The notes beneath the pieces were generated by a model. The model saw only the letters and a list, made by a program, of their open reading frames with translations. It ran no database searches and was not told where the DNA came from. From assembly GCA_021161555.1 (NCBI GenBank), contig JAGHAI010000108.1:1-39310 (forward strand): a stretch of DNA of 39,310 nt. Reading direction: 5' to 3'. A program made the translations under genes and the position numbers. The DNA comes from a bacterium (GTDB taxonomy: Bacteria; UBP14; UBA6098; B30-G16). This document shows, piece by piece, positions 36,260-39,310 of this stretch (the first letter of the stretch is position 1; each line of letters starts with the position of its first letter).

Positions 36260-39085
36260 TCATTTCAGCAATTTTTTTAAAAATTTTCCGGTGATGGAAT
36301 TTTTTGATTTTGCAATATCTTCTGGTGTTCCCTCCGCCACGATTTTGCCGCCCATTTCTCCACCTTCGGGACCGAGGTCGATGACCCAATCTGCGTGTGC
36401 AATCACATCGAGATTATGCTCAATCACCACGATTGTGTTTCCCTTCTCCACGAGTTTATCGAGAACTGAAAGCAGGACTTTTACATCGTAGGCGTGCAGT
36501 CCAACAGTGGGCTCGTCGAGTATGTATAGTGTATTTCCAGTTGCTATGTGAGTTAGTTCCTTTGCGAGTTTTACGCGCTGTGCTTCTCCGCCTGAAAGTG
36601 TTGGAGCGGGCTGTCCAAGACGAATGTAGCCAAGTCCAACATCGTGAAGTATCTGAAGTTTGCGAACGATAGGTGGAATGTTTTCAAACAGCGTCAGCGC
36701 CTCGTCAACGGTCATATCCAGAACATCCGCAATGGAATGCCCCTTAAATTTTATTTCGAGAGTTTCCCGATTGTATCTTTTCCCCTTACACACATCGCAG
36801 TGTATGTAAACATCGGGAAGGAAGTGCATTTCAAGTCTTATCATCCCGTCGCCAGAACACGCTTCGCATCTGCCTCCCTTCACATTGAAAGAAAATCTTC
36901 CTGGTTTATATCCTCTCGCCCTCGATTCTGGCAGAGATGCAAAAAGTTCTCTAATGGGTGTGAAAACTCCCGTATATGTTGATGGATTTGAGCGTGGTGT
37001 TCGTCCGATTGGCGACTGGTCTATGTCAATTACTTTGTCGAGATACTGCAAGCCGATTATTTCTCTGTATTCGAGCGGTTTTATGTGAGCGCGATGGTAA
37101 TATCTCGCAAGTATTGGATACAGTGTTTCGTTTATCAGCGTCGATTTCCCGGAACCAGAAACCCCTGTGATGCAGATGAATTTCCCCAGCGGAAATTTTA
37201 CATCGATGTTTTTTAAATTGTGCCCCGATGCGCCGCGGAGAACGAGAAATTTCCCATTTCCAGCCCGTCTCCGTTCGGGAATTTTTATCCTCAATTTGCC
37301 CGTCAAATACTGCCCTGTGTAACTTTCAGGTGTTTCTTCTATATCTTTTACCGTTCCCTGCGCGACGACATTTCCCCCAAAAGTTCCCGCGCCAGGTCCC
37401 AGATCGACGATATAATCTGCTCTGCGGATAATATATCTGTCGTGTTCCACGATGATTATTGTATTTCCCAGGTCGCGCAGCCGTTCGAGTGTGTTCATCA
37501 ATCTTTCGGTATCTTTGGCGTGAAGCCCTATCGTTGGTTCGTCGAGAACATAGAGGACGCCGACCAAGCCTGAACCAATTTGAGTTGCAAGATGAATTCT
37601 CTGCGCTTCACCGCCAGAAAGCGAATGAGTTATCCTGTCCAGCGTCAGATATCCAACGCCGACATCGCATAGAAACTGCAATCTCTGTCGGATTTCTTTA
37701 ACAATTTGTTCAGCAATTATCCTGTGAGTGGGTGTCAGTTTTTCCATTAAATTGCTGAAAAAATTGTGAGCGTTCTTCACGGACATTTCCACTATTTCGT
37801 GAATGTGTTTTCCTGCAATCGTCACCGCTCTTGATTCGGGTCTCAATCTTGAACCTCCACAACTGCTGCAGGGAACGGATATCATAAACCTCTCAATCCA
37901 GGCGCGCATATTTGCTGAATCGGTCTGACGGTATCGCCGCTCCAGATTCGGGATAACTCCTTCGTAAACGCCGCGCCATACGCCCTGGTGATGTCCATCA
38001 CTGCTCGTATATTCCATCTCCAATTCCTCCGGCGAGCCATAGAGGACAATGTTTTTCTGTTCGTCGGTGAGCGATTTCCACGGCTTGTGCAGTGGAATGT
38101 CATATTTTTTGGAAAGCGCCTTCAACTTGGCGAAATACCATCCTCCAATCGGGTCCCGCCAGGGAACTATTGCGCCTTCTATGAGTGAAAGATTTTCATC
38201 GGGAACAATCAATTCGGGGTCGATGCGCATCTGAACGCCGAGACCAGAACATTCCTTACAGGCACCATAGGGGGAATTGAAGGAGAACATCCTCGGCGAA
38301 AGTTCCTGAATGCTCGTTCCACAATCGGGACACGCCATCTTTTCGGAAAAAAATCTTTCCTCGCCCGTATCATAGTCGAGGACGACGAGAAGACCATCTC
38401 CATATTGTAGCGCTGTTTCAATGGATTCCGCAAGACGACCGCGATATTTTTCATCCACGACGAGCCTGTCAACCACGAGTTCGATGTCGTGCTTTTTATT
38501 CTTGTCGAGGCGGATTTGCTCGTCCATCGTCTTAATTACTCCATCAACTCTTACGCGCAAAAATCCTTCCCTCTGCAGTTTTTCAAACAGGGATTTATGT
38601 TCGCCCTTTCTGCTGCGGACGATAGGGGACAGAATGATAATCCTGTGTCCTTCTGGCATAGATAGAATTTCGTCGGTGATGCCCTGAACCGTCCACCTGA
38701 CAATCGGTTTTCCGCAAATCCAGCAATGCGGCGTTCCTATGCGAGCGAATAAAAGACGCAGATAGTCGTAAATTTCCGTCGCGGTTGCCACTGTGGAACG
38801 AGGATTGTGCGAAAGTTTTCTCTGCTGAATTGCAACTGCAGGGGAAAGTCCCTCGATGCGTTCTACATCGGGCTTTTCCATCAGCGATAGAAACTGCCTC
38901 GCATAGGCGGATAATGACTCGACATAGCGCCTTTGACCTTCTGCGTATATCGTGTCGAAGGCGAGCGAACTTTTTCCCGAACCGGAAAGTCCCGTGATGA
39001 CGACAAGTTTATCGCGGGGAATTTTTACGCTGATGTTTTTGAGATTATGTTCCCGCGCTCCTTCAACTGTTATATATTTTTCCAT
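36260..39085 (-). CDS. uvrA: excinuclease ABC subunit A
   Basis: [60 protein letters not shown]; duplicated LSGGEAQR signatures; zinc-binding cysteines. Confidence 0.98.
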
Positions 39086-39148
39086 CTGTTTCCCGATGTA
39101 TTTTTCTATAAAGATGAATTTTTAACGATATAATTTAACAATATAAAA

Positions 39149-39164
39149 AATTTTCCGGAAAATT
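39149..39164. repeat. 16-bp perfect palindrome between uvrA and the downstream divergent ORF
   Basis: AATTTTCCGGAAAATT. Confidence 0.9.
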
Positions 39165-39212
39165 GCAATGTAATAAAGCCTACGGGGAGTATAACTTATT
39201 TTGTGTAATTTT

Positions 39213-39266
39213 GGAGGTTATATAAATTAACCTCCCTGGCATTGAAAACCAAAAAGCAGGGAGGTT
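39213..39266 (+). promoter_or_regulatory. two mutually exclusive hairpins in a 5' leader; the second buries the Shine-Dalgarno
   Basis: Stem A GGAGGTTA (39213-39220)/TAACCTCC (39228-39235); stem B AACCTCCCTG (39229-39238)/CAGGGAGGTT (39257-39266); shared segment 39229-39235; SD GGGAGG lies in stem B. Confidence 0.7.
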
Positions 39267-39270
39267 TCAA

Positions 39271-39310
39271 ATGAAACGACACTTCTATGGTGGTCGCAAG
39301 GTAAGTTGTG
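39271..39310 (+). CDS. start of an ORF truncated by the window edge (MKRHFYGGRKVSC...)
   Basis: ATG 6 nt after GGGAGG; continues past window end. Confidence 0.55.
   Translation, partial: MKRHFYGGRKVSC

Follow-up and report, generated by a model that had tools for sequence, protein, structure and literature searches.

The window analysed here, a stretch of 39,310 nucleotides that makes up the whole of contig G000:C90, ends in two overlapping hairpins, one of which pairs the Shine-Dalgarno sequence of a reading frame that runs off the contig. The question raised by this arrangement is whether it constitutes a translational switch, as a first-pass annotation of the DNA had proposed, and to what kind of gene it belongs. 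We conclude that positions 39185–39310 are very probably the left end of an IS256/Mutator-type element that has gone in upstream of the promoter of uvrA, that the hairpins make up the leader at the 5′ end of the transposase gene, and that the stronger of the two, stem B, probably serves as a lock on translation.

Table 1. Features of the insertion locus and of the transposase leader, in window coordinates.
Feature	Position	Strand	Basis
uvrA (excinuclease ABC subunit A)	36260–39085	-	NF001503, 1502 bits; TIGR00630, 1431 bits
Sigma70-like promoter TTGCAA-17-TATATT, upstream of uvrA	39140–39168	-	motif match
Left part of multi-copy IS256/Mutator-type element	39185–39310	+	repeat matches; ends at contig end
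Left terminal inverted repeat GGGAGTATAACTTATTTTGTGTAATT	39185–39210	+	alignment of copies
TATAAC, putative -10 of a hybrid promoter at the junction	39190–39195	+	inferred by comparing the sequence with ISCth4/IS256
Stem A, 5′ arm GGAGGTTA	39213–39220	+	seen in sequence, folded
Stem A, 3′ arm TAACCTCC	39228–39235	+	seen in sequence, folded
Stem B, 5′ arm AACCTCCCTG, the anti-Shine-Dalgarno	39229–39238	+	seen in sequence, folded
Stem B, 3′ arm CAGGGAGGTT, with the Shine-Dalgarno inside	39257–39266	+	seen in sequence, folded
Shine-Dalgarno GGGAGG	39259–39264	+	6 nt before ATG
Start of transposase reading frame MKRHFYGGRKVSC...	39271–39310	+	open to contig end

A multi-copy element at the contig end

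The last 126 bases of the window match about 25 places in its own genome (2.3 Mb, 234 contigs), and the contig stops inside the element because the element is a repeat; several contigs start or stop within it. In the alignment of copies the left end has the consensus GGG(N)2TATAACTTATTTTGTGTAATT, and the right-end partner in other copies, reverse complemented, reads GAGTCTGCAACTAATTTTGTGTAATT at the aligned places. The terminal inverted repeats are asymmetric and carry the conserved terminal G/C that is characteristic of the IS256 family. Complete short copies measure about 100–510 bp. The left ends on contigs C90, C108 and C83 are identical, and the right ends on C203, C128 and C68 are near-identical over the compared stretch, which suggests that these copies are recent and that the assembly lost their middle. 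Since the youngest copies are incomplete in the assembly, lacking their middle, an intact transposase copy may exist; none of the element's family turned up in the genomes searched, and the transposase in G000 and G002 is present as fragments only.

The reading frame that the first-pass annotation had described as a new one needs another description, the part contained in the window being the first 13 codons of a transposase-type frame that in longer copies reads MKQHFFGG...VRDFLRESVFEFLRDEIERILEAWADEVKRVFGV. In those copies its N-terminus aligns with the N-terminus of distant IS256-type transposases, and pieces of two of them were matched, at profile positions 21–47 and 58–84, by a profile built from 12 distant IS256-type proteins; a 74-residue piece from copy C163 had no Pfam match, though the profile of relatives matched it. 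Fragments in the same genome match the Pfam family Transposase_mut (PF00872) above the cut-off, and a 204-residue stretch of a related copy, G002:C190, matches both PF00872 (E = 1e-33) and the NCBIfam IS256 model (E = 5e-36), the latter at 124 bits, which is below the full-length cut-off of 150 because only 204 residues are present. By both models the transposase is of the IS256 family. What begins at 39271, within a mobile element present in multiple copies, is a transposase gene and not a gene of the host preceded by a riboswitch.

The element is also found in two other genomes of the class, on contigs QNEG01000190.1 (presumably a Guaymas MAG, to judge from the scaffold name) and JAGGUN010000038.1. 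When genome contigs were scanned with the 20-base left end, the matches were confined to the two relatives already known and an unrelated site in Chitinophagaceae, and viral contigs yielded nothing when searched with either a transposase fragment or the inverted repeat.

Pairing of the Shine-Dalgarno sequence

Both stems, their overlap, the GGGAGG and the ATG (39271–39273) lie exactly where the first-pass annotation had placed them. The arms of stem A enclose a 7-nt loop, stem B consists of 10 perfect pairs, and positions 39229–39235 are common to both, so that the two helices indeed exclude each other, as had been claimed. The fold of 39181–39310 reaches -40.7 kcal/mol, as compared with -25.5 ± 3.1 kcal/mol for dinucleotide shuffles (z = -4.85), and none of 200 shuffles was as low; the structure therefore exceeds chance.

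Similar pairing was seen in far more distant members of the family. A search of 386 genomes provided distant IS256-type transposase genes, mostly 20–35% identical, and the 75 nt upstream of the start codon were examined for each. Among 49 leaders with a frame and a candidate start, 13 without a strong Shine-Dalgarno were excluded, leaving 36 that are not all independent (L154 and L192 are the same G037 gene). The mean upstream pairing probability of the Shine-Dalgarno was 0.80 in these 36, as against 0.49 in 59 other genes, which are open reading frames chosen by rule rather than curated genes (Mann–Whitney p = 1e-7), and 0.49 in shuffled leaders. The probability exceeded 0.8 in 56% of the IS256-type leaders, compared with 10% of the other genes and 12% of the shuffles. 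A looser count, of helices with 9 or more pairs and one mismatch allowed, did not set IS256-type leaders and other genes well apart (22 of 36 and 25 of 59, respectively; p = 0.06). The sequences of these leaders diverge and the Shine-Dalgarno region is still paired, for example by ACCTCCTGGGG...CCCCAGGAGGT in L131 and by GGGGTATCTCC...GGAGATACCCC in L156. A literature search found no title or abstract on such masking for IS256, which is not proof of its absence. If the masking holds across IS256, a simple translational lock would be common to a very common group of insertion sequences.

That short copies of 100–500 bp without a transposase gene retain the leader, and that a copy in G009 keeps stem A alone with no ATG after it, would fit a role of the inverted repeats as DNA, either as sub-terminal transposase-binding sites or as cruciform-forming MITE ends, with the overlap of the Shine-Dalgarno being incidental. 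However, the distant IS256-type leaders, although of different sequence, pair exactly the Shine-Dalgarno region; such pairing in divergent leaders is not predicted by DNA binding and therefore counts against a DNA-level role, which we consider unlikely.

With the hairpins read as elements of an mRNA leader, what matters is the balance between them. The first-pass annotation held that one helix hides the ribosome site and the other frees it, in the manner of riboswitches, thermosensors and autoregulated leaders, and it recommended folding 39181–39310 and comparing the energies of the two stems. In isolation these are -10.7 kcal/mol for stem A and -17.6 kcal/mol for stem B (-18.1 with flanks), a deficit of 7 kcal/mol for stem A, and stem B came out as clearly the stronger. 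For transcripts starting at 39085 to 39231 it dominates the computed ensemble, with a mean open probability of the Shine-Dalgarno of at most 0.18; in a read-through transcript from 39181 the site is open with a probability of 0.002 (0.2%), and it becomes exposed only for starts at 39233 or later. Stem B is dominant throughout 37–80 °C, heating lowering stem A first and not stem B. Since stem B is favoured over this whole range and for nearly every transcript start, it is, in the model, a lock rather than a two-state switch. A thermosensor was considered and rejected, as in the modelled temperature series the Shine-Dalgarno stem was not opened and the site was still closed at 80 °C.

A true two-state switch, with stem A freeing and stem B hiding the ribosome site, would nonetheless account for the exact geometry of the overlapping stems, and stem A does reach 12–35% for starts at 39205–39213. 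Stem A is also kept in the G002 copies and, among own-family copies that are mostly decaying and non-autonomous, shows a slight excess of pairing and covariation, with a score reached by 12 of 500 shuffles. The compensatory changes for which the annotation had suggested aligning homologous leaders are thus weakly apparent in stem A; in stem B of the same copies covariation was not above shuffles, a point against the lock. Set against a switch are the dominance of stem B from 37 to 80 °C, with stem A rather than stem B yielding to heat, the related copies C95, C159 and G002:C190, in which the Shine-Dalgarno is closed for all starts tested, and most of the distant IS256-type leaders, which have an analogue of stem B and, by eye, no evident stem A. 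Moreover, an Rfam search of the region gave no family and nothing above a 17-bit chance match, in agreement with the annotation, which had recognised no known riboswitch core, and the gene is a transposase. We therefore regard a two-state switch as very unlikely: the hiding of the ribosome site by stem B is supported, by the fold and by its recurrence in distant IS256-type leaders, and the switching is not.

That the hairpins are a chance by-product of a purine-rich Shine-Dalgarno lying near its complement is highly improbable, for although other genes with a strong Shine-Dalgarno also average 0.49 upstream pairing and a helix of 9 or more pairs with one mismatch is possible in 25 of the 59, the z of the region, its 10 perfect pairs and the IS256-wide pairing excess all argue otherwise.

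Insertion position and transposase expression

The host gene adjoining the insertion is uvrA, and its -35-like box begins 16 nt outside the left end of the element; in DNA as AT-rich as this, the uvrA promoter match alone does not exceed chance. A perfect palindrome, AATTTTCCGGAAAATT (39149–39164), overlaps this promoter between the -35 and the -10 and is possibly an operator, and a similar palindrome, TTTCCGGAAAA, is found next to the G002:C190 copy at its right end.

Across the copies, 13 of 23 right-end flanks carry TTG at precisely 16 nt from the element, and none of 5000 rotations gave so high a count. The -35/-10 score on right ends peaks at the same offset, where 11 of 23 have at least 8 of 12 matches (0 of 400 rotations). 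On left ends the promoter score also peaks at offset 16, more weakly (0 of 400 rotations), and the TTG count is weak (4 of 23, reached by 505 of 5000 rotations). The copies lie at a fixed distance within the range, 15–17 bp upstream of a -35 box, that is known for TnGBS/ISLre2/ISKra4 insertions. Flanks with ends 16 nt upstream of -35 boxes can be seen, for example, at L010:3580, L014:3438, L018:3368, L078:2735 and 39140–39184 of the window. Copy C95 (L010 from about 3580) sits immediately ahead of the promoter of what we take, from a reading of the product, to be the gene of ribosomal protein S15 (rpsO). In front of rpsO the relatives diverge too strongly for an empty-site comparison.

No target-site duplication was detected in the 13 complete copies (L010, L011, L014, L016, L017, L018, L021, L078, L079, L080, L085, L086 and L124), including the 8- or 9-bp duplication by which the IS256 family is recognised, and the match between their flanks was no better than that of shuffled flank pairs. 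In G184 and G111, by contrast, distant IS256-type relatives are flanked by clear 8-bp duplications. The G184 copies L201 and L203 of a distant IS256-type element, likewise with 8-bp duplications, apparently lie inside terminator-like hairpins.

We give an even chance to the view that an IS256-type lineage acquired fixed 16-nt insertion without target-site duplication, in addition to a Shine-Dalgarno-masking leader that is general to IS256-type elements. If an IS256-type lineage does target promoters, such targeting would have arisen outside the two Mutator lineages known for it. The fixed promoter distance, if true, would imply targeting via the promoter or its polymerase in more Mutator lineages, and the missing duplication would require a different account of the joining of ends.

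As a translational lock, stem B would keep transposase synthesis low, above all from outside read-through, as transcripts from neighbouring promoters would carry the whole leader and remain untranslated. Productive transcription would come from a hybrid junction promoter of the circular intermediate. The right end carries TTGCAG, and in the circle the abutted ends, separated by an 8-bp spacer, would bring it together with the TATAAC of the left end into a promoter with a 17-bp gap. Transcripts from this promoter would start near 39203–39205, still containing both stems; for such starts the Shine-Dalgarno is computed to be open about 2–7%, and transposase synthesis would therefore be low even then. 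Stem A, as the weaker alternative, would at most delay or slightly loosen the lock during RNA synthesis. Given that the copies are mostly decaying and non-autonomous and that no intact transposase was found, the lock may by now have nothing left to act on here.

Comparison with known systems

The element has much in common with the IS256 family (p-MULT 1, Transposase_mut): its fragments of transposase are hit by both PF00872 and the NCBIfam IS256 model, it shares the inverted-repeat TTTTGTGTAA core with distant IS256-type elements, among them those of G184 and G034, and its Shine-Dalgarno is masked as in distant IS256-type members. IS256 insertion is reported to be random, with no preferred position relative to promoters, and p-MULT elements produce 8- or 9-bp duplications (PMC3942029), whereas here the distance of the copies from -35 boxes is 16 nt and no duplication can be detected. 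A fixed distance upstream of the -35 is shared with TnGBS/ISLre2 (p-MULT 3) and some ISKra4 elements (p-MULT 4), whose insertions lie 15–17 bp ahead of the -35 in sigmaA promoters; in p-MULT 3 it is mostly the right end that faces the promoter (PMC3942029). Models of the ISKra4 and ISLre2 transposases (NF033572 and NF033529), however, had no match in G000 or G002, the two genomes with transposase remnants of the element, nor did they appear among the NCBIfam hits that gave the IS256 match.

In ISCth4, a member of the IS256 family, the -35 is in the right and the -10 in the left terminal repeat (PMC7780238), and TTGCAG and TATAAC occupy similar places in the present element. The ISCth4 copies differ from ours in mostly having 8-bp duplications and in their intact transposase.

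The leader would follow the same logic as those of IS10, IS50, IS200 and ISPpu9, which belong to different transposase families. In IS10 and IS50, the transposase ribosome site is masked by inverted repeats. In ISPpu9 it is blocked by mRNA structure (PMC8450116), and a folded transposase leader in IS200 is indicated by the title of a reference cited in that paper (PMC8450116). At the end of the window, the structure is a leader with which an IS256-type transposon masks its Shine-Dalgarno, a device of a known kind in an element with an unusual insertion habit.
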